Shown here piece by piece: positions 23,421-41,395 of a stretch of DNA of 64,000 bases. Both the position numbers and the translations under genes were made by a program. Each line of letters begins with the position of its first letter. Position 1 is the first letter of the stretch. Under the pieces are notes generated by a model. That model was not told the DNA's origin and ran no database searches. It was given only the letters and a program-made list of their open reading frames with translations. Source of the stretch: Sneathiella chungangensis (GTDB taxonomy: Bacteria > Pseudomonadota > Alphaproteobacteria > Sneathiellales > Sneathiellaceae); contig NZ_WTVA01000002.1 in the NCBI RefSeq assembly GCF_009882935.1, positions 62,001-126,000 on the forward strand, in the 5' to 3' direction.

Positions 23421-26243
23421 ATGAGCAGCCGCGAAGAAAACAAACCACTCAGCGCCGAAGAGCTTGAGGATCTCGTTGCCTCGACAGATGTCGGTGGGCG
23501 TAATCCGTCGAACAGGAATATTGCCTTGTTCATCGCCGCGCTGGCCCTTATCTGGTCGTTGTGGCAAGTCTGGATCGCTTCACCCATCCCCTACCTCGTC
23601 GGATGGGGCGTATTCTCGGGCAAGGAAGCCCGACCAATTCATCTGGCCTTTTCCCTTATCCTCGCATTTCTGGCCTACCCGGCGTTCAAAAAATCACCGC
23701 GGGACCACGTGCCGGCCATGGATTGGGTGCTCGGTATCCTTGGCGTTGCAACGACCATGTATCTGGTCGTTTTTGACAGTTCCATCGCGGATAGCCTCAT
23801 GGGGTCGCGCCTATCCGACCGTCCGGGTAATCCGAATACCTTGGATATCGTGGTTGCCTGTGTCGGTGTGGTCGTCTTGCTGGAAGCGACGCGGCGCGCG
23901 CTCGGCCCGCCCTTGATGATCGTTGCCATGGTCTTCCTTGGCTACACCTTCCTTGGCCCCTATGCCCCCGGCATCCTCGCCTGGAAAGGAGCGAGTTTCG
24001 GTGCGGTTGCGGATCACCAGTGGCTCTCTTCCGAAGGGGTCTTCGGTATTGCCCTTGGTGTTTCTACCGGGCTCGTGTTTCTCTTCGTTTTGTTTGGCGC
24101 CTTGCTCGATAAGGCCGGCGCCGGCAATTATTTCATCAAGGTCGCCTTTTCTCTGATGGGGCATATGCGTGGCGGCCCGGCAAAGGCGGCGGTCGTTGCC
24201 TCCGGCATGACAGGGCTGATTTCCGGCTCTTCCATTGCCAATGTTGTCACCACCGGCACTTTCACAATTCCAATGATGAAACGAGTCGGGTTCAATTCCG
24301 AAAAGGCAGGCGCTGTTGAAGTCGCCTCCTCCGTCAATGGTCAGATCATGCCGCCGGTTATGGGCGCGGCTGCCTTCCTGATGGTTGAATATGTCGATAT
24401 CAGCTATTTCGAGGTGGTAAAGCATGCCTTTGTGCCCGCCATTATTTCCTACATTGCCCTTGTTTACATCGTCCATCTGGAAGCGATGAAACTGGATATG
24501 CAGGGGCTACCGCGGGCCGGCGAGGTCAAGCCGGTAAAGCTTGCGTTATTGTCATTTGGTATCACGCTTGCGACCATACTTATTCTTGGCGGCGCCCTGT
24601 ATTATCTATCCGAATTGTTCGGCCTCCTCGACAGTTCTATGAATCGGCTGATTGTCATACTTGTCCTGATATTACTTCAGGTCGGCATTTTGAAAGGTGC
24701 GGTCGAGAAGGCGGAAGAGGGCACGAAGGCGAAAATACTCTCGAAGGGGGCGCTGGTCCTTTGCAACGCGGTTATCGTCGGCTTTGCCGTATTCTTCGCC
24801 GTTGATCTGATCCGCCAGTTGGCAGGGCCGGTCTTGACGCCCTGGATCGCCGGGGCCGCAATTCTCGCCGTTTACATCTATCTGATTTCCATTTGCGCCA
24901 AATATCCGGATCTGGTGATCGATGATCCGAATTCTCCGATCACTGCCCTTCCCGAACCCGGCCCGACCGTTATGGCGGGGCTGCATTTCATTCTTCCGGT
25001 GGGAGTTCTCATCTGGTGCCTGATGATTGAGCGCCTGTCGCCCGAACTATCTGCTTTCTGGGCGGTGGCATTGATGATCTTCATTCTTCTCACGCAACGC
25101 CCCCTCTTTGCCCTGTTCAGGAAGAACGCTGGATCAGGATTTTTTAAACAGGGATTTGATGAGCTTATCGATGGCCTGATTTCCGGCGCCCGCAATATGA
25201 TTGGTATCGGCATCGCGACCGCCGCCGCCGGGATCATTGTCGGTACGGTATCGCAAACCGGGGTCGGTCTTGTCCTGGCGGAATTGGTTGAGTTTCTGTC
25301 GCAAGGCCAGATACTGCTGATCCTGATTTTCACCGCCATCCTGAGTCTGATCCTTGGCATGGGCTTGCCGACAACCGCCAATTATATTGTTGTCTCGTCT
25401 CTATTAGCGCCGGTCATTGTCAGCCTTGGGCAACAGAATGGCTTGATCGTTCCGTTGATCGCGGTCCATCTGTTTGTGTTCTATTTCGGCATCATGGCGG
25501 ATGTGACGCCGCCGGTTGGCCTCGCATCATTCGCCGCCGCGGCGGTCTCCGGCGGGGACCCGATCCGCACCGGTTTTGTTGCCTTCTTCTATTCACTTAG
25601 AACCGCAATTCTGCCTTTCCTGTTTATCTTCAACACCGACCTGCTCCTGATTGATGTGACGCCGCTTCAGGGCGTGATCGTCTTCATAATATCAACGGTG
25701 GCGATATTGCTGTTTACTGCGGGAACGCAGGGATATTTCATGGCGAAATCGAGGATTTGGGAGTCGATTTTGCTCATCCTGATCGCCTTTACCCTATTCC
25801 GGCCCGGTTTCTGGATGGATATAATCTCTCCGCCCTATGAAAAAGTTGATCCGGCGGGAATCGTTGACGCCGTGCAAAATGCGTCCCCAGAATCGGAACT
25901 GCGTCTTATTGTGCAAGGGATGGACGACGTCGGCGATGACATCGTCTTTACGGCAGTATTTCCTGTCGGTGATCAGGCAACAGGCGAGGAAAGGCTGGAA
26001 GCCTATGGTCTTGAGCTATTGATCGAGAACAACAAGGTCCTTATCGATAATGCCGCTTTTGACAGTCCCGCTCAGGCCGCCGGCCTTGATTTCGACCAGC
26101 AGATTATATCGGTTCTTGTTCCCGTCAGTCAGCCGGCAAAGGAATTGTTATATATACCGGCCATTCTGCTGGTCATCGGCATTTATATGTTGCAGCGCCG
26201 CCGTCGGCAGCCGCCTGTCGCATCATCGCCGACAGCCGGGTAA
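23421..26243 (+). CDS. Fused TRAP transporter permease (DctQ-DctM, TAXI type)
   Basis: This 940-residue membrane protein joins the small and large TRAP subunits, as is usual for TAXI systems. An N-terminal four-helix DctQ-like part (about residues 30-160) is followed by a DctM-like part with SGMTGLISGSSIANVVTTGTF (about 255), SSVNGQIMPPVMGAAAFLM (about 295), LGMGLPTTANYIVVSSLLAP (about 645) and DVTPPVGLASFAAAAVSG (about 695). The C-terminal region (about 800-920) is a soluble domain of the DUF3394 type followed by a last helix and a basic tail. It is at the long end for such fusions. Confidence 0.92.
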   Translation: MSSREENKPLSAEELEDLVASTDVGGRNPSNRNIALFIAALALIWSLWQVWIASPIPYLVGWGVFSGKEARPIHLAFSLILAFLAYPAFKKSPRDHVPAMDWVLGILGVATTMYLVVFDSSIADSLMGSRLSDRPGNPNTLDIVVACVGVVVLLEATRRALGPPLMIVAMVFLGYTFLGPYAPGILAWKGASFGAVADHQWLSSEGVFGIALGVSTGLVFLFVLFGALLDKAGAGNYFIKVAFSLMGHMRGGPAKAAVVASGMTGLISGSSIANVVTTGTFTIPMMKRVGFNSEKAGAVEVASSVNGQIMPPVMGAAAFLMVEYVDISYFEVVKHAFVPAIISYIALVYIVHLEAMKLDMQGLPRAGEVKPVKLALLSFGITLATILILGGALYYLSELFGLLDSSMNRLIVILVLILLQVGILKGAVEKAEEGTKAKILSKGALVLCNAVIVGFAVFFAVDLIRQLAGPVLTPWIAGAAILAVYIYLISICAKYPDLVIDDPNSPITALPEPGPTVMAGLHFILPVGVLIWCLMIERLSPELSAFWAVALMIFILLTQRPLFALFRKNAGSGFFKQGFDELIDGLISGARNMIGIGIATAAAGIIVGTVSQTGVGLVLAELVEFLSQGQILLILIFTAILSLILGMGLPTTANYIVVSSLLAPVIVSLGQQNGLIVPLIAVHLFVFYFGIMADVTPPVGLASFAAAAVSGGDPIRTGFVAFFYSLRTAILPFLFIFNTDLLLIDVTPLQGVIVFIISTVAILLFTAGTQGYFMAKSRIWESILLILIAFTLFRPGFWMDIISPPYEKVDPAGIVDAVQNASPESELRLIVQGMDDVGDDIVFTAVFPVGDQATGEERLEAYGLELLIENNKVLIDNAAFDSPAQAAGLDFDQQIISVLVPVSQPAKELLYIPAILLVIGIYMLQRRRRQPPVASSPTAG

Positions 26244-26259
26244 TTGAGGAGAGAATAGA

Positions 26260-26688
26260 ATGTTCAAGGATATCTTGCTTGCAGTGGATGTCGAGGACGC
26301 GGGGTCATGGAAAAAGCCTGTTGAGGTCGCCACGGAATATGCAAGGGCGTTCAATTCCAATCTGCATATTATGACCGTCGTTCCGGATTTCGGCATGAGT
26401 ATCGTCAGTTCCTATTTTCCGGCGGACTATGAGAAAAAGATGGTGGAAAAAACGACGGAGATGCTCCACAAGTTTGTTAAAGAGCATGTATCGGATGATA
26501 TTCACGTCCAGCATATCGTCGGGCTGGGATCGATTTACGAAGAAATCCTTCGCGTCAGTGAGGAGATTAGCTCCGACCTGATTATCATGGGCACGCATCG
26601 CCCGAAGATGCAGGATTATCTTCTGGGTCCCAACGCGGCGCGGGTGACCCGACATGCGGCCTGTTCCGTGATGGTCGTGCGGGATTGA
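26260..26688 (+). CDS. Universal stress protein (UspA family, TeaD-like)
   Basis: This 142-residue cytoplasmic protein starts FKDILLAVDVED and ends with GTHRPKMQDYLLGPNAARVTRHA then CSVMVVRD, the UspA fold. The ATP-binding motif G-X2-G-X9-G-S/T is altered: Arg replaces the second Gly and Pro follows the last. Similar sequences occur among stress proteins encoded next to TRAP transporters, such as TeaD of Halomonas, which controls ectoine transporter activity. It lies 16 bases after the permease gene and probably modulates that transporter. Confidence 0.88.
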   Translation: MFKDILLAVDVEDAGSWKKPVEVATEYARAFNSNLHIMTVVPDFGMSIVSSYFPADYEKKMVEKTTEMLHKFVKEHVSDDIHVQHIVGLGSIYEEILRVSEEISSDLIIMGTHRPKMQDYLLGPNAARVTRHAACSVMVVRD

Positions 26689-32198: not shown

Positions 32199-33509
32199 AT
32201 GAACTCACCAGTAGCTGGCCAAGCGGCAATGGAGGCCGCCAAGCCTCCCAGTCGACGCTTCCTTCAAAGCGAAGATTTTAAACCACTTCCTCACATCATT
32301 GCAGATAACACCGCACATGCGGACCCGTCTGCATTTCCCATATCGGAGCGCTCCCGTGCCTTCAAGGACCAGTTTTTTCCCGCCGCAAGCGACGCGGAAT
32401 GGCTCGATTGGCGGTGGCAGCTCAGAAACCGGATCAGGTCCCTTGCGGGTCTTGAACGGATCTTCAATTTGACCGCCGACGAGCGCGATGCGGTATCGCG
32501 TCATACGGGGTCGTTGCCCATGGGCATTACCCCCTATTATGCGAGTTTGATGAGCCTCGATAACCCCTCAGAGGGTCTTCGCCGTACGCATATTCCGGTG
32601 GGTAATGAATTCATCAAGATGCCAGGCGAAGCCGACGATCCGCTCGGCGAGGACCATGATGCGGCGGTGCCGGGTCTTGTTCATCGCTACCCGGACCGGG
32701 TGCTGTTTCTCGCAACCGGCTTCTGCTCCACCTATTGCCGCTATTGCACGAGATCGCGCATGGTCGGCGAGGCGGGCGGCGAGTATGAATTCTCGAAGTC
32801 CCAGTGGGAGAAGGCATTCGATTATATCGCGGCGCATCCGGAAATCCGCGACGTGCTGATCTCGGGCGGCGATCCGCTGACCTTGTCGGATGACCGGCTT
32901 GACTATCTGCTGACGCGCCTCCGGGCGATCGAGCATGTGGAATTCATCCGCATCGGCTCGAAAATACCGGTTGTGATGCCGATGCGGATCACCAAGTCGC
33001 TGACGGATATGCTGAAAAAGCACCATCCGCTGTGGATGAGCATTCATTTCACCCATCCGGATGAACTGACGCCCGAAGTAACCGAGTCGACAGCGCGGCT
33101 TGCCGACGCGGGTATTCCGCTCGGCAGCCAGACGGTGCTCTTGAAGGGGATCAATGACGATCTCTCCATCATCAAGCCGTTGATGCATGGCCTGCTGAAA
33201 CGCCGGGTGAAACCCTATTACCTCTACCAATGTGACCCGATCACCGGTTCTTCGCATTTCCGGACGCCAGTGGCGAAAGGCCTCGAAATCATCGAGGGTT
33301 TGCGCGGCCACACGACGGGCTACGCGATCCCGACCTTTGTGATCGATGCTCCGGGTGGTGGCGGCAAGATCCCGTTGCTTCCTGATTATGTGGTCGGCCG
33401 CGACGGAGAGGATCTCATCCTTCGTAACTTCGAAGGCGGAACCTATCGCTATCACGATCCGGACGGCGTGATCGGGACGGAACCCTGTCATCAGCAGGCC
33501 GCGCAATGA
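32199..33509 (+). CDS. kamA: Lysine 2,3-aminomutase (radical SAM)
   Basis: This 436-residue enzyme converts L-lysine to L-beta-lysine using a [4Fe-4S] cluster, SAM and PLP. The radical-SAM cysteines are C176, C180 and C183 (FCSTYCRYCTR). The PLP Lys is K390 in DAPGGGGKIPL, and the two substrate-binding Asp of the Clostridium enzyme are matched by D346 (YQCDP) and D383. The C-terminal region is complete, with LRNFEGGTYRYHDP. Having both lysine-binding Asp favours true lysine mutase activity, although EpmB-type enzymes (beta-lysylation of EF-P) are related. No epmA or efp gene is nearby. It overlaps the next gene by 4 bases. Confidence 0.88.
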   Translation: MNSPVAGQAAMEAAKPPSRRFLQSEDFKPLPHIIADNTAHADPSAFPISERSRAFKDQFFPAASDAEWLDWRWQLRNRIRSLAGLERIFNLTADERDAVSRHTGSLPMGITPYYASLMSLDNPSEGLRRTHIPVGNEFIKMPGEADDPLGEDHDAAVPGLVHRYPDRVLFLATGFCSTYCRYCTRSRMVGEAGGEYEFSKSQWEKAFDYIAAHPEIRDVLISGGDPLTLSDDRLDYLLTRLRAIEHVEFIRIGSKIPVVMPMRITKSLTDMLKKHHPLWMSIHFTHPDELTPEVTESTARLADAGIPLGSQTVLLKGINDDLSIIKPLMHGLLKRRVKPYYLYQCDPITGSSHFRTPVAKGLEIIEGLRGHTTGYAIPTFVIDAPGGGGKIPLLPDYVVGRDGEDLILRNFEGGTYRYHDPDGVIGTEPCHQQAAQ

Positions 33510-34510
33510 AGCTCGGCCTCGTCTATGACCTGCGCGATGACTATCTCGCCCTCGGGTTTTCGGAGGAAGAGACGGCGGAATTCGATTCCCGCGCCACCAT
33601 CGACGCGCTTGATGGCGCCCTTGGCCGACTTGGATGGGACGTCCATCGGGTTGGGCGTGGGCAGGAGCTTGCGCGTTGGTTGGTGGGCGGGGAGCGGTTC
33701 GATCTTGTCTTCTCCATTGCCGAGGGCCTGCATGGACGCTCGCGGGAAGCCCAGGTTCCGGCGCTCTGCGAGATGTTTGACCAGCCCTACGCCTTTTCCG
33801 ATCCGCTGACCATGGCGGTGACGCTGGACAAGCCGGTGGCCAAACGCATCGTCCGCGACAGCGGCATTCCGACGGCGGATTTCGCGATTTTTGCAGAGGC
33901 CGTAAAGCCTTTGCCGGAGATCGCCTTTCCGGCGTTCCTGAAGCCGATCGCGGAAGGGACGGGCAAGGGTTGCGGCGGCCGTTCGAAGGTATCAAATAGA
34001 ACGGAGCTCAAGCGTGAGGCCGCGCGGCTGATCGAGAAATTCCATCAGCCGGTGATTGCCGAGAGCTATCTTGCGGGCCGTGAGTTCACGGTCGGCATTG
34101 TCGGCAACGGCGCAGAGGCGCGAGTGATTGCCGTGATGGAGATCGCCGTCAAACCCGATGCGGACAGCGGGATCTACAGCTACGAAATAAAGGAAAACTG
34201 GGAACCCTTCGTGACTCTGTCGATTGCGAATGACGCGGAAGCACACCTCGCCGGAGAGCGGGCGCTTGCCGCCTATCATGCGCTCGGTTGCCGGGATGCG
34301 GCGCGCGTTGATCTTAAATCGGACGGCCATGGCTCGCCGCAATTTCTTGAAGTCAACCCGATCGCCGGATTGCATCCAACCCATTCGGATTTGCCGATCC
34401 TGACGACGAAGGCGGGCTATAGTTACGACTGGCTCATTGGAGAAATTGTAACGTCGGCGCTAAGCCGCTACGCAGCAGCCACACCGGTCACAAACGTCCG
34501 GGCGGCCTGA
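33506..34510 (+). CDS. D-Ala-D-Ala ligase-like ATP-grasp protein (first)
   Basis: This 334-residue ATP-grasp ligase joins a carboxylate, activated as acyl phosphate, to an amine. Its fold matches D-alanine-D-alanine ligase: N-terminal GLVYDLRDDY, FDLVFSIAEGLHGRSREAQVPALCEMF (about residues 65-92), AFLKPIAEGTGKGCGGRS (ATP loop, about 145), PVIAESYLAGREFTVGI, and the metal-binding end FLEVNPIAGLHPTHSDLP (about 290-307). It is clustered with kamA and a second ligase rather than with cell-wall genes, so it is probably not a peptidoglycan Ddl. Likely substrates are lysine-derived or other amino acids. Confidence 0.87.
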   Translation: MKLGLVYDLRDDYLALGFSEEETAEFDSRATIDALDGALGRLGWDVHRVGRGQELARWLVGGERFDLVFSIAEGLHGRSREAQVPALCEMFDQPYAFSDPLTMAVTLDKPVAKRIVRDSGIPTADFAIFAEAVKPLPEIAFPAFLKPIAEGTGKGCGGRSKVSNRTELKREAARLIEKFHQPVIAESYLAGREFTVGIVGNGAEARVIAVMEIAVKPDADSGIYSYEIKENWEPFVTLSIANDAEAHLAGERALAAYHALGCRDAARVDLKSDGHGSPQFLEVNPIAGLHPTHSDLPILTTKAGYSYDWLIGEIVTSALSRYAAATPVTNVRAA

Positions 34511-34517
34511 GACGTCA

Positions 34518-35483
34518 ATGACGGACTATATTCCGGTCCTGCACGGAGGCACCGACCTCCGCGCGGACGAGCTCGATACCATCGAAAGCGCGAAGCACAT
34601 CGCGTCGGCGCTGGAAAGGCTTGGATATCGGAGCGAGGTTATTGCGCTCGATATTGATTTCACCGTGGTCGAGACAATCGCCCAGGCGAAGTCACTTGTC
34701 GTTTTTAATCTTGTTGAGAGTATCCGTGGAGACGGTCGGCTTGGTCATCTCGCCTGCGCCTTCCTGGAGCATTTCGGACTAGCCTATACTGGGGTCGGGG
34801 AATCCGCTTTTTTCCAGAGCAATTCGAAGCGGCTCTCTAAAGCGCTACTGCGCGCCGCAAACTTGCCGACACCCCGGGAATGGACGGATGTCGCGGCGGC
34901 GGGCCAGAAAGTGATTATCAAGTCAGTTAATGAACATGCCTCATACGGAATGGACCAGAATTCGATTGTCGAGGGGTCAGAGGCTTTGAACGAGATTGCC
35001 CGCCGGGAGAAGGAGTATGGCGGTCGCTTCTTCGCCGAAGCCTATATTCCGGGGCGCGAGTTCAATATCTCGATGGTGGAGACGAAAAGGGGACCCATGG
35101 TGCTGCCGATTGCCGAAATGCGGTTTGACGGGCTGCCGGAGGGGACCTATCCGATCGTCGACTACAACGCGAAATGGAACGAGGAAAGTGATATCTATCA
35201 TCATACAAGGCGCAGTTTCGGACTTGAGGCGCAAGAGCCTGATCTTGCGTCGGAGCTTGTCCGTATCTGCAACGATTGCTGGGTTGCTGCGGACCTCTCA
35301 GGCTACGCTCGGATTGATTTTCGTGTCGATCCTGCCGGTCGTATCTACATCCTCGAATATAACGCCAATCCCTGCCTTGCGCCCAATGCCGGATTTGCGG
35401 CGGCGCTCGGCGAAGCCGACATGCGCTATGAGGATGGCATCCGGATGATAGTCGACGCGGCTCTGGCGAAGGAAGCAAACTGA
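34518..35483 (+). CDS. D-Ala-D-Ala ligase-like ATP-grasp protein (second)
   Basis: This 321-residue ATP-grasp protein is related in fold to its upstream neighbour but clearly divergent. Seen are VVFNLVESIRGDGRLGHLACAFLEHFGLAYTG (about 60-95), VIIKSVNEHASYGMDQNSIV (ATP lid, about 135), FAEAYIPGREFNISMV (about 175) and YILEYNANPCLAPNAGFAAAL at the metal site (about 285), where Asn and Glu are preserved. The central VDYNAKWNEESDIYHHT segment resembles the substrate region of Ddl proteins. The gap to the previous gene is 7 bases and it overlaps the next as TGATG. Two ligases imply a product with two amide bonds or two alternative steps. Confidence 0.87.
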   Translation: MTDYIPVLHGGTDLRADELDTIESAKHIASALERLGYRSEVIALDIDFTVVETIAQAKSLVVFNLVESIRGDGRLGHLACAFLEHFGLAYTGVGESAFFQSNSKRLSKALLRAANLPTPREWTDVAAAGQKVIIKSVNEHASYGMDQNSIVEGSEALNEIARREKEYGGRFFAEAYIPGREFNISMVETKRGPMVLPIAEMRFDGLPEGTYPIVDYNAKWNEESDIYHHTRRSFGLEAQEPDLASELVRICNDCWVAADLSGYARIDFRVDPAGRIYILEYNANPCLAPNAGFAAALGEADMRYEDGIRMIVDAALAKEAN

Positions 35484-37750
35484 TGTTCCGCATTCGAACC
35501 CTGACTGATGCCTCGGCACCTGCCAACCAGAAAGCAATCGCGGAGATCCAGACGATCATCCGCGATCAGTTCTCCGATATGACGGACAAAGACATCGCCA
35601 AGTTGCCGGAACAGATTTCCGACCCGATCACCCACCAGTTCGTGGCCAAGGTCTCGGTCGCCGAAGACGGGCGTGGGCGTATTCGCGGCTTCTCGCTTCT
35701 GCTTGTCGATCCGCTGCTCAATTTTGGTTATCTCGAACTGATTGCAACGGCCAAGAGCGGTTCGGGCAGCGGCGTCGGCGCGGCGCTTTATGAGCAGATC
35801 CAGCAGCGTGCGCGGGAAAAGGGCTTGCGCGGCCTCTATTTCGAATGCCTGCCCGATGATCCGGAGCTGAGCCCCAACCCGGATATCCGCAAGCAGAATG
35901 AGGACCGGCTCCGTTTCTATGAGGGGTTCAATGCCTTTCCGATCATGGGAACGGACTACGAGACGCCGGTAACGCCGGGAACCTTCGACAGCCCCTATCT
36001 GATGTTTGACGGCCTTGGCGAATTCATGCTGCCGCCCGCGGTGACCTTACGCCGGATCGTCCGTGCCATCCTGGAGCGGAAATATGCCGATCTCTGTCCG
36101 CCGGAATATGTCCAGCGCGTCGTCGAATCGATTAAGGACACTAAATTCGCGATCCGGCTGCCGCGCTATGGCAGTAAAATGCCTGACCTCAAACAACAGG
36201 CTGTCGCGGCGAAAATTCCGCTTATCGTCAATGACCGACATGATATCCACCATATCCGCGAGCGCGGCTATGTCGAGGCGCCGGTCCGCATCAAATCCAT
36301 CCTCAAGGAACTGGAGCCGACGGGGCTTTTTGAGGTGACGGCGCCGAAGCATTATGGCGACCGGCATATCAAGGCCGTTCATGACACCCGGCTTGTCGAT
36401 TATATCGAGCAGGCCTGTGCCGATGCGCCGGAGGGTAAATCGATCTACCCTTATGTCTTCCCGATCAGGAATGCGCAGCGAATGCCCAAGGACCGCTCTG
36501 TGCTTGCCGGTTACTGGTGCATCGATACCTTCACGCCGCTTAATCGCAACGCCTTTCCGGCGGCGCGGCGGGCCGTTGATTGTACCCTGACGGCGACAGA
36601 AGCGGTTCTCGATGGCGCAAGGGCGGCCTATGCGCTGATCCGTCCGCCCGGTCATCATGCGGAGAGCCGAGCCTTCGGTGGATTTTGCTATTTCAATAAT
36701 GCTGCGATATCGGCGCAATATCTCTCCCGTTATGGGAGGGTGGCTGTGCTTGATGTCGATTACCATCATGGGAATGGCACACAGGACATTTTCTATGAAC
36801 GCGACGATGTACTCACGGTTTCGATCCATGGCGACCCGTCCTTCGCCTATCCCTATTTCACCGGCTTTCGTGATGAAACCGGACGCGGGGCCGGGGCGGG
36901 ATGCAATCTCAATATCCCGCTTCCCGAAACAATCGTGCCGGACGATCATCGCGAGGCGCTCAAAAAGGCGTTCGCGCGCATCCGGGATCATGCACCGGCC
37001 TATCTGGTTGTGGCGCTCGGCCTTGACGCCGCAAAGGGTGATCCGACGGGCACCTGGCCCTACCGCGCCGCCGATTTCTACAAGATGGGGGCATTGATTG
37101 CCGGAATCGGCCTTCCCATGGTGTTCGTGCAGGAGGGCGGGTATCGCGTGCGCAATCTCGGTGTCAATGCCCGGCGCTTTTTTGAAGGCGTGGCAAGTGT
37201 TGCCAAGACGCCGGACCTGACCTGGCAACTGAAACGCAAAGGCGGCACAGGCAAGAACGAGCCGATGAAATGGCGCTCGTCCGTTGCGCCTGCCGATGTC
37301 GCTGAAATCCGCCGGATCGTTATGGCCACCAACGCTTTTTCCGGAGAGGAGATCGATATCGCGGCGGAACTGGCGGAGGAACGTATCACCAAGGGCCGGG
37401 CCTCCGGCTATGAGTTCATCCTTGCGATCCAAAACGGCAGGCTCGCGGGCTACGCCTGTTATGGCAAGACCCCGGGCAGCGAGCAGGCCTATGATCTTTA
37501 CTGGCTCGTCGTCGATCCGGACCGACAGCGAAGCGGGCTCGGGGGTCAAATTCTGGATTGCACCGAGGCGGCTATTCGCAACGCAGGCGGCGCCTTCATG
37601 ATCGCGGAAACCTCGTCAACGGTTGCTTATGACAAGGCGCGTGCGTTTTATGAGCGTGTCGGGTTCGAGAGGCTGGTTGAAATAAACGATTTCTACCGGC
37701 CCGGAGACAATAAGGTCATTTATCGGAAAAGTTGTCCACCTCAATCCTGA
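35483..37750 (+). CDS. GNAT - histone-deacetylase-like - GNAT fusion protein
   Basis: This 755-residue protein has three domains. Residues about 1-160 form a GNAT acetyltransferase (motif A region GSGSGVGAALYEQIQ at 93). Residues about 170-575 form an arginase/deacetylase-fold amidohydrolase of the acetylpolyamine-amidohydrolase/HDAC family: the His pair H391-H392 in RPPGHH, zinc ligands D426 and H428 (DVDYHHGNGT) and D515 (LGLDAAKGD), and the catalytic Tyr Y554 in QEGGY are all present. Residues about 598-755 form a second GNAT with the acetyl-CoA motif QRSGLG at 682. It could both add and remove acyl groups on the amines of a lysine-derived product. No signal peptide; cytoplasmic. Confidence 0.9.
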   Translation: MFRIRTLTDASAPANQKAIAEIQTIIRDQFSDMTDKDIAKLPEQISDPITHQFVAKVSVAEDGRGRIRGFSLLLVDPLLNFGYLELIATAKSGSGSGVGAALYEQIQQRAREKGLRGLYFECLPDDPELSPNPDIRKQNEDRLRFYEGFNAFPIMGTDYETPVTPGTFDSPYLMFDGLGEFMLPPAVTLRRIVRAILERKYADLCPPEYVQRVVESIKDTKFAIRLPRYGSKMPDLKQQAVAAKIPLIVNDRHDIHHIRERGYVEAPVRIKSILKELEPTGLFEVTAPKHYGDRHIKAVHDTRLVDYIEQACADAPEGKSIYPYVFPIRNAQRMPKDRSVLAGYWCIDTFTPLNRNAFPAARRAVDCTLTATEAVLDGARAAYALIRPPGHHAESRAFGGFCYFNNAAISAQYLSRYGRVAVLDVDYHHGNGTQDIFYERDDVLTVSIHGDPSFAYPYFTGFRDETGRGAGAGCNLNIPLPETIVPDDHREALKKAFARIRDHAPAYLVVALGLDAAKGDPTGTWPYRAADFYKMGALIAGIGLPMVFVQEGGYRVRNLGVNARRFFEGVASVAKTPDLTWQLKRKGGTGKNEPMKWRSSVAPADVAEIRRIVMATNAFSGEEIDIAAELAEERITKGRASGYEFILAIQNGRLAGYACYGKTPGSEQAYDLYWLVVDPDRQRSGLGGQILDCTEAAIRNAGGAFMIAETSSTVAYDKARAFYERVGFERLVEINDFYRPGDNKVIYRKSCPPQS

Positions 37751-39610: not shown

Positions 39611-41395
39611 TTGAATAAGCTTTTGGAAAGACGTCTGACAACCATCGTGGCCGCGGATCTCGTGGGATACTCGCGGTTGGTCTCAAATAACGAAGAGGCC
39701 GTGATCACGAGATTTCGGGACTTGCGACGGGACCTTATCGTTCCAACAATTTCGAGCGCGCAAGGCCGGGTCATCAAAACCATGGGAGACGGGTTTCTTG
39801 TCGAGTTTCCGTCGCCGCGCGCCGCTTTGCATACGGCCGTCTTTCTCCAACACGCAATGTATGAGCGCGAAGGCGCAATCCCTTCTGAAACGCGGCTGAT
39901 GTTCCGTATCGGGATCAATTACGGGGAGGTCATTGTCGATGGCGACGACGTGCTGGGAGATGTGGTCAACATTGCCGCCCGACTTGAAAGCATTGCGCCG
40001 CCGGGCGGTGTCTGCATCTCCGAGGCAGTGTATACAGAAGTCGCCGATGCCAGCGACACGCGCCTGGTGCCGTTGGGGCCGCAATATGTGAAGAACATTC
40101 CGGCGCCGGTGAATGCATGGAATGCGCTGATCAAGGGCGTTGATGCCAGCCCGACCAAACCTGCCAGACGCTCCGAGCGTCCATCCATAGCGGTCTTGGC
40201 CTTTGAGAATAACTCGGATGACGACGAACAGAGGTTCCTCGCGGACGGTATTGCCGAAGACGTTATTGTCCAGTTGTCGCGTTTTCGATCCCTTTTCGTC
40301 ATCGCGCGAAATTCCGCCTTTTCATACAGAAACACACACAAGGATGTGCGTGAAATAGCCCGCGAGCTTGGGGTGCGCTACGTGGTCGAGGGATCGGTTC
40401 GCCGGGGGGGAGATCGTCTGCGAGTGAGTGCTCATCTGGTCGAGGCAAAAACCGGCAGGCATATCTGGTCCGGCCGGTGGGATCGCACGGTCTCAGATCT
40501 GTTTGACCTGCAGGATGAATTAACCCACGCGATCGTGTCGGAACTTGCGCCGGAGCTTGGTGCGAATGAGCGGTCGCTGGCAAGGCGCAAACCTACTGAA
40601 AATTTGACAGCGTGGGAACTCTGCCAAAAGGGATTGGCAGAGTTTTACAATTACAGTGAAGAGAGTTATCCCGCCGCGGCAAGGCTGTTTAAAGCGGCGA
40701 TCGACGCTGACCCTGAATTTGCCTTGCCATATGCGCTTTTGGGACGATGGCATTCTGTCATGGTTACGACCGGCCGGAGTGTCGATATCCCCAATGATGT
40801 GCAGCAGGGGTTGATCAATGCGAGCAAGGCGATTGAGCTGGATGATCGATTGGAAGACGGTCATTTCGCGCTGGGATCATTGCTGACCCTGATGCGTCAG
40901 GAAACGCAGGCCAAAGACTCTCTGGATCGCGCCTATGCGCTGAATGACAATAACCCGGTGATGTATCACGCGCGCACGATGTTTTACCTGTATCAGGTTG
41001 AGCCCGATACACATGCGATGGAGAAATCGGCACAAACGGCCCTGGCGCTTAATCCGAAGGACCCGCTGGCCTGGGCATTCCATTTCATGATCGGAACAGC
41101 CCGCTGGATGCGGAACCTTGAAAATCTGCGGCCAGATGTGAAAGAGGCAATAGATGCCGCCTGTGCGTCGGTGCAGGTGGATTACTTTCCGCTCATAATT
41201 GGGGCGGTATTGTATGTGCGCCTGAATGATTTGGATCAGGCAAAATACCTGCTGGAGCGGGCCATGGGGCGTCGTCCGGCATTGACGCTGAAGATGTGGC
41301 ACACGGCCTTTCCATTTCCATCATGGCCGCGCATGATCAAATCGATCGAGCCCGAGCTTGAAAAGCTGGTCGAGATCGGGCTGCCGAGGGAGTAA
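39611..41395 (+). CDS. Class III adenylate cyclase with TolB-like and TPR domains
   Basis: This 594-residue protein makes cAMP. The cyclase domain (residues about 8-175) has both metal Asp (D16 in AADLVGYS, D60 in KTMGDGF), the adenine-selecting pair K56 and D113, and the transition-state residues N120 and R124 (VVNIAARLE), so it should be active on ATP. Next comes a TolB N-terminal/FlgO-like domain (about 190-315; PSIAVLAFENNSDDDEQRFLADGIAEDVI) and TPR-like repeats up to the end. The start is a TTG. The set cyclase-TolB-TPR is common in Rhizobiales and relatives; the signal is usually unknown. Confidence 0.9.
   Translation: MNKLLERRLTTIVAADLVGYSRLVSNNEEAVITRFRDLRRDLIVPTISSAQGRVIKTMGDGFLVEFPSPRAALHTAVFLQHAMYEREGAIPSETRLMFRIGINYGEVIVDGDDVLGDVVNIAARLESIAPPGGVCISEAVYTEVADASDTRLVPLGPQYVKNIPAPVNAWNALIKGVDASPTKPARRSERPSIAVLAFENNSDDDEQRFLADGIAEDVIVQLSRFRSLFVIARNSAFSYRNTHKDVREIARELGVRYVVEGSVRRGGDRLRVSAHLVEAKTGRHIWSGRWDRTVSDLFDLQDELTHAIVSELAPELGANERSLARRKPTENLTAWELCQKGLAEFYNYSEESYPAAARLFKAAIDADPEFALPYALLGRWHSVMVTTGRSVDIPNDVQQGLINASKAIELDDRLEDGHFALGSLLTLMRQETQAKDSLDRAYALNDNNPVMYHARTMFYLYQVEPDTHAMEKSAQTALALNPKDPLAWAFHFMIGTARWMRNLENLRPDVKEAIDAACASVQVDYFPLIIGAVLYVRLNDLDQAKYLLERAMGRRPALTLKMWHTAFPFPSWPRMIKSIEPELEKLVEIGLPRE

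Follow-up and report, generated by a model that had tools for sequence, protein, structure and literature searches.

A co-inherited set of a lysine 2,3-aminomutase-type enzyme, two ATP-grasp ligases and acetyl-handling domains in Sneathiella chungangensis may form a modular beta-lysine peptide pathway

In the gene layout for N-acetylglutaminylglutamine amide (NAGGN), an asparagine-synthetase-like amidotransferase stands beside the ligase/acetyltransferase. The synthesis of N-epsilon-acetyl-beta-lysine depends on ablA and ablB, an aminomutase and an acetyltransferase that yield an osmolyte in methanogens according to a passage of PMC1224877; a passage of PMC3543383 assigns the Pelobacter carbinolicus genes called ablA and ablB to osmolyte synthesis. 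These genes may be copies of the operon described below. EpmB, an enzyme of the elongation factor P (EF-P) pathway, is presented in a section of PMC2821294 as a truncated lysine 2,3-aminomutase. Here we analyze a 64,000-nucleotide stretch of Sneathiella chungangensis (contig NZ_WTVA01000002.1, positions 62,001 to 126,000; the window), which carries four genes on its forward strand: kamA, for a radical SAM/pyridoxal phosphate (PLP) enzyme of the lysine 2,3-aminomutase type (32199..33509, 436 residues); ligA and ligB, for a first and a second amide ligase of the ATP-grasp, D-Ala-D-Ala ligase (Ddl)-like type (33506..34510, 334 residues; 34518..35483, 321 residues); and a gene for a GNAT-HDAC-GNAT fusion protein (35483..37750, 755 residues), the domains of which we call GNATn, HDAC and GNATc. 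The kamA and ligA genes overlap by 4 bases in an ATGA, ligB starts 7 bases past the end of ligA, and ligB and the fusion gene overlap by 1 base in a TGATG; a re-check finds these coordinates and junctions exactly as a preliminary description of this DNA had given them. The operon stands alone between its flanking genes, a TPR protein upstream (322 bases away) and an oxidoreductase of the flavin adenine dinucleotide (FAD) type downstream (226 bases away). On balance we consider it probable that these genes encode a modular pathway, in which KamA would make beta-lysine, LigA and LigB would form amide bonds, GNATc would acetylate, and GNATn-HDAC would add an acetyl group and remove it.

The association of these genes is not a matter of chance. 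Using the N-terminal GNAT, we pattern-scanned a collection of 84,980 species genomes and retained the best 80 of 452 relatives. In 51 of these 80 loci GNATn-HDAC is accompanied by KamA, GNATc and two or more ligase hits; a partial set is present in 12 (among them L104, located at a contig start, with KamA alone), and 17 hold the GNAT-HDAC protein without the other members, save for GNATc in one. When a LigA profile was run on 23 genomes with incomplete loci, LigA was found elsewhere in the genome for 14 of these 17. KamA accompanies LigA in all 15 such separate clusters (those 14 and that of L087) and GNATc does so in 13, the two without it being L186 and L188, of which the latter is cut by a contig end. 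The carriers of the set belong to Proteobacteria, Desulfuromonadales, Chloroflexi, Calditrichota and Acidobacteria, with varying gene order and fusions. Alphaproteobacteria mostly keep the order KamA-LigA-LigB-fusion, and the order of the window recurs identically in three other alphaproteobacterial genomes from different families (L034, L035 and L036; L034 coincides with L073, which is among the 80, and together with L037-L039 it was excluded from the neighbor clustering, later tables and alignments). GNATc is a separate gene in most gammaproteobacterial loci, in Calditrichota and in Chloroflexi; Desulfuromonas relatives have the order LigA-LigB-GNATc-KamA, and a SAR86 contig carries the operon genes on opposite strands. 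That the set is kept despite such rearrangement argues for function. With the score thresholds given below, LigA and this KamA both go undetected in three other genomes placed in the same genus, so the distribution of the operon is patchy.

The distances between loci tell the same story for most of the members. We compared them across the 51 rows in which none of the six domains is missing, among which are the window, L035 and L036, and KamA, LigA, LigB and GNATc agree pairwise with r 0.86-0.95 (KamA-LigA 0.95, LigA-LigB 0.93, LigB-GNATc 0.92). HDAC agrees less closely (r 0.65-0.77) and GNATn least, yet every correlation exceeds all 999 permutations. The weaker agreement of GNATn and HDAC is in line with a module that joined later. 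The preliminary description had suggested that the four genes could form one pathway; the genes do travel together, and the linkage supports a co-inherited pathway of a lysine 2,3-aminomutase-type enzyme and two amide ligases.

Two samples of genomes show a nested composition. In 289 alphaproteobacterial genomes, with LigA called at E 1e-40 and KamA at 370 bits or more (a threshold placed at a gap in the score list, plus one fragment), LigA occurs in 19 and this KamA in 32. No LigA genome lacks KamA: all 19 have it, one as a contig-end fragment and one on another contig (Fisher p 1.4e-21, uncorrected for kinship). Because this sample overlaps with that of Pseudomonadota, described next, and related genomes are counted singly, the p values overstate the certainty. 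The GNAT-HDAC protein is present in 5 of the 19 LigA genomes and absent from 14, with up to three candidates scored per genome. Fifteen alphaproteobacterial LigA neighborhoods have no adjoining fusion protein; KamA is adjacent in 14 of them, LigB in 15 and GNATc in 11. Among 398 Pseudomonadota genomes LigA was again found in 19, and GNATn in the window genome only, the other 18 being without it. Twelve of those 18 neighborhoods were examined, and KamA is present in 12/12, LigB in six (one neighborhood is cut by a contig end, which bears on this count) and GNATc in four. The six loci with KamA and LigA and no recognizable LigB all belong to one genus; in these genomes a LigB profile picks up nothing beyond LigA itself and some hits of 96-122 bits. 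The latter are probably ordinary Ddl enzymes, and a strongly diverged LigB may be present. KamA with LigA is the smallest set seen, to which LigB, then GNATc and then GNATn-HDAC seem to have been added in turn, with GNATn-HDAC as an optional add-on of partly separate history.

This composition bears on the role of acetylation, which the preliminary description had suggested might be a protecting step, removed later. Since most LigA genomes (14 of 19 alphaproteobacterial and 18 of 19 Pseudomonadota) are without GNATn-HDAC, a protecting group is not needed for assembly, and the six genomes of one genus with KamA and LigA and an unrecognizable LigB point the same way. The co-inherited aminomutase/ligase pathway is thus supported and the protecting step is not, although such a step could still hold for the variant in the window, or unrelated enzymes could substitute for it elsewhere.

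KamA consists of Radical_SAM and LAM_C domains (PF04055 and PF12544) and matches the lysine 2,3-aminomutase of Clostridium subterminale (PDB 2a5h) with E 3.4e-135, residues 58 to 422 being covered. By alignment, KamA C176/C180/C183, R185, D346, D383 and K390 correspond to C. subterminale C125/C129/C132, R134, D293, D330 and K337. We take these residues to be the CxxxCxxC cluster, the Arg for the carboxylate, the two Asp that bind the lysine side chain and the PLP Lys. KamA thus has every one of the residues expected of a lysine 2,3-aminomutase, and their columns are conserved in at least 95% of 72 aligned sequences, the window counted in. On the AblA model (TIGR03820) KamA reaches 485.3 bits, 40 bits short of the cut-off of 525.4, and seven other operon KamAs are likewise under it at 451-495 bits. 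AblB was considered as a partner of KamA and rejected; its model (TIGR03827) has no match in the window genome and none above cut-off in any of the 289 genomes. A quick KamA tree requires three label changes for the KamAs without adjoining LigA, and all 500 shuffles require more; 10 rows carry this label, two of them doubtful (the L168 contig ends within LigA, and L177 has LigA elsewhere in the genome).

Both ligases contain Dala_Dala_lig_C (PF07478; 88.1 bits for LigA and 55.6 bits for LigB). The AlphaFold model of LigB (mean pLDDT 94.9) has Ddl structures as its top PDB matches (E 5e-24, TM score about 0.8), so that the Ddl-type ATP-grasp fold is supported for LigB by the model and for LigA by sequence alone. 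Neither would be classed as a true Ddl, since the best Ddl model (NF002378, cut-off 243) gives 131.9 bits for LigA and 99.3 bits for LigB.

The fusion protein is recognized by Pfam over the Hist_deacetyl domain (residues 264-568) and a GNAT at residues 640-728. GNATn with its helical extension (35483..36202, about residues 1-240) has no Pfam match in the window's protein. Its AlphaFold model (mean pLDDT 87.4) has GCN5, 2r7h and EctA among its best PDB matches by Foldseek, and the orthologue in L069 is recognized as a GNAT by Pfam. Glycines G95, G97 and G99, presumably those of the acetyl-CoA loop, are conserved in at least 90% of 34 sequences. At its N-terminus the fusion protein shares 94% identity with its counterparts in Sneathiella litorea, S. 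sedimenti and a Sneathiella metagenome-assembled genome. The HDAC domain (36272..37186; PF00850, 250 bits) has acetylpolyamine amidohydrolases as all of its five top PDB matches, the best being 6phr with 262 bits across 306 residues. H391/H392, D426, H428, D515 and Y554 are invariant in seven aligned sequences, the window counted in, and we assume these to be the Zn and catalytic residues; with the HDAC fold, Zn ligands, tandem His and Tyr in place, the domain is predicted to be of the acetylpolyamine amidohydrolase type. GNATc (37265..37732, about residues 595-750) is closest to PDB 2r7h (DDE_3044; 140.8 bits), which is titled putative acetyltransferase and named putative D-alanine N-acetyltransferase. 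Of the 59 loci that hold GNATc together with GNATn-HDAC, 30 have them as a fusion; elsewhere GNATc is a stand-alone gene or a LigB fusion, the latter in two open reading frames (ORFs; L123 and L125). That one domain is joined to two different partners assigns LigB and GNATc as well as GNATn-HDAC to a single pathway. A PHROGs search matched only generic acetyltransferases, for the fusion protein.

In the pathway that we propose, KamA would convert L-lysine to beta-lysine, as its conserved catalytic and lysine-binding residues suggest. LigA would then couple beta-lysine, at the expense of ATP, with another amino acid or a second beta-lysine, and LigB would add one further residue. GNATc may acetylate an amine of the substrate or product of LigB. 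GNATn would add an acetyl group to the same molecule and HDAC would remove it, probably at the aminopropyl end of beta-lysine. This end is the one acetylated in N-epsilon-acetyl-beta-lysine, and its shape is like that of an acetylated polyamine end, which fits the HDAC type. What the sequences show is gene linkage, a nested composition, fusions and conserved active-site residues; the substrates, the order of steps and the role of the product (a charge-adjusted small peptide serving as solute or polycation) are predicted. More tentatively, and with a good deal less confidence than we place in the pathway as a whole, GNATn-HDAC might be one enzyme that acetylates and deacetylates a beta-lysyl peptide as a charge switch, the peptide belonging to a so far undescribed class of beta-peptide metabolites whose pathway, in fuller and reduced forms, is spread across several phyla.

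Several observations weigh against this proposal. KamA reaches no NCBIfam equivalog cut-off, and neither do the seven other operon KamAs. Nothing but linkage points to beta-lysine as the amino acid ligated by LigA or LigB. In 13 of the 32 alphaproteobacterial genomes that carry this KamA, LigA is not matched at E 1e-40 (one contig ends inside LigA), and G190 has LigA without KamA nearby, its KamA lying on another contig and grouping with KamAs that have no LigA beside them. The LigA profile also found none in three of the 17 genomes with GNATn-HDAC alone (L067, L090 and L119). Two more genomes, L038 and L039, have GNAT-HDAC proteins of a divergent kind and no match for LigA. The distance agreement of GNATn is only r 0.31 with KamA, 0.45 with LigA and 0.55 with LigB; taken with the divergent proteins, this weak agreement suggests that the substrate range of GNATn-HDAC may be wider.

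We looked for a sixth conserved gene by clustering the 2763 ORFs that lie no more than 6 kb from the core, and rejected the idea of one; the largest clusters span 12 loci each. One consists of ABC-type ATPases, judged by eye, whose positions are scattered and which occur on either strand; the other is a winged-helix gene, mostly from Chloroflexi and upstream of the core in 11 of its 12 loci. Smaller clusters comprise an aminotransferase-like ORF and MarC (six loci each), a GroEL-like ORF (five), and MscS-type, MgtE-like, exchanger-like and dehydrogenase-like ORFs (four each); the clustering contained shadow ORFs as well, and the Pfam identifications are those of MarC, MscS and the winged-helix gene. 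MarC-family membrane protein genes lie near or inside the operon in L065 (9363-9971), L079, L093, L096, L101 and L102, all Chloroflexi by title except L096. An MscS-type mechanosensitive channel gene (L096:7209-8084, the one Pfam-tested) has homologues in L069, L087 and L115. A Cys-cluster protein of about 200 residues (L126:5750-6355, L131:6503-7195, L130:8805-9839 and L186:7518-8138; PF03692 at 17.3 bits, below cut-off, in the single sequence tested) follows LigB in three GNATc-less alphaproteobacteria, and in a spirochaete the two ligases flank it. A RhuM-family gene (L198:3903-4997) lies between LigB and GNATc. The divergent GNAT-HDAC genes of L038 and L039 have SURF1 and dCTP deaminase genes close by, and that of L039 is beside a carboxypeptidase Taq (M32) gene. 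Elsewhere in the window, a DctM-type TRAP transporter gene is followed by a universal stress protein gene (23421-26688), an order like that of the TeaABCD ectoine transporter, and a guanylate/adenylate cyclase domain is fused with weak TPR matches (39611-41395). Promoter and terminator scans gave scores inside the range given by shuffles.

What the product does is open to several readings, of which an osmolyte is possible, though we would not call it probable. The methanogen pathway cited above is a precedent for an aminomutase with an acetyltransferase, and according to PMC9337991 a bacterial ablA has ahead of it a tandem riboswitch for Na+ and c-di-AMP, which was tested in vitro. No riboswitch or other Rfam match, however, reached the gathering score in the window, in eight operon loci or in 14 further loci. 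The LigB-GNATc fusions resemble by analogy the ligase-acetyltransferase logic of NAGGN, and MscS-type channel homologues lie near the module in the four loci named. Many carrier genera are marine, whereas some carriers are apparently non-saline by record title. No homologue of GNATc or GNATn lies near KamA and LigA in the minimal variants, and no GNAT was among eight Pfam-tested neighbors in four of the six such loci (a search of neighbors rather than of whole genomes); with no acetyltransferase nearby, their product would be polycationic.

Such minimal variants suit a beta-lysine-peptide polycation or cap, the charge of which acetylation would tune and which would be used on a macromolecule such as the cell wall, a lipid, a polysaccharide or a protein. 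The fold and sequence of the ligases, which place them in the Ddl family, and the polyamine-deacetylase type of the HDAC favor this as well, but the neighbors tested include no recurrent macromolecule transferase, and we regard it as unlikely. Somewhat less likely again is a secreted natural product, such as a siderophore-like or antibiotic peptide, with the GNAT for self-protection and the HDAC for activation. Beta-lysine is found in peptide antibiotics, and the Cys-cluster protein, the MarC protein within Chloroflexi operons and the ABC-transporter-type ATPases of 12 loci could be read this way; against it, the clustering shows no exporter at a constant position, and one compact set is present across phyla. 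Finally, the preliminary description had itself raised the alternative that KamA is an EpmB acting on EF-P, with unrelated neighbors. This we consider very improbable. KamA shares the family's radical SAM core with EpmB, but unlike EpmB it has LAM_C, it scores 248.1 bits on the EpmB model (TIGR03821) against a cut-off of 369.3, far below its score on the AblA model, and its neighbors are the ligases to which it is linked.

If the proposed modular pathway is correct, a beta-lysine peptide would join the known bacterial metabolites, and functions would be gained for genes likely labelled D-alanine ligase, histone deacetylase or GNAT, 2r7h included. A rare acetyl writer and eraser would reside in one polypeptide and act on a metabolite, and the nested series of variants hints at the sequence in which the steps occur and opens each of them to testing. 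In the open literature, judged by titles and the beginnings of abstracts, we found no description of this gene set, and papers naming both ATP-grasp and aminomutase were on other subjects; subscription literature lay outside the search. The passages on GNAT and fusions in the survey PMC11532494 mention no such GNAT-HDAC protein. Such neighborhoods may have been noted before: a 2009 amidoligase survey by Iyer and colleagues may list comparable ones.

Compared with the known systems, LigA and LigB have the fold and ATP-grasp core of Ddl, while both are far under the Ddl cut-offs and the acceptor-loop SHSL of Ddl aligns with THSD in LigA. The HDAC domain matches the bacterial HDAC-like acetylpolyamine amidohydrolase 6phr and retains the Zn and catalytic residues; unlike those enzymes, it sits behind a GNAT and often also before a second one. 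As in ablA-ablB, a lysine 2,3-aminomutase is paired with an acetyltransferase, whereas the operon of the window has two ATP-grasp ligases in addition and a KamA 40 bits under the AblA cut-off. As in NAGGN synthesis, an ATP-grasp ligase is joined to a GNAT in the LigB-GNATc fusions; the operon differs in its predicted beta-lysine monomer and in the presence of a deacetylase, and the neighbors tested with Pfam include no asparagine-synthetase-like gene. The locus would appear to encode an ATP-grasp and acetyltransferase metabolite pathway of a known kind, the monomer of which would be new and which includes an unusual fusion of acetylase and deacetylase.

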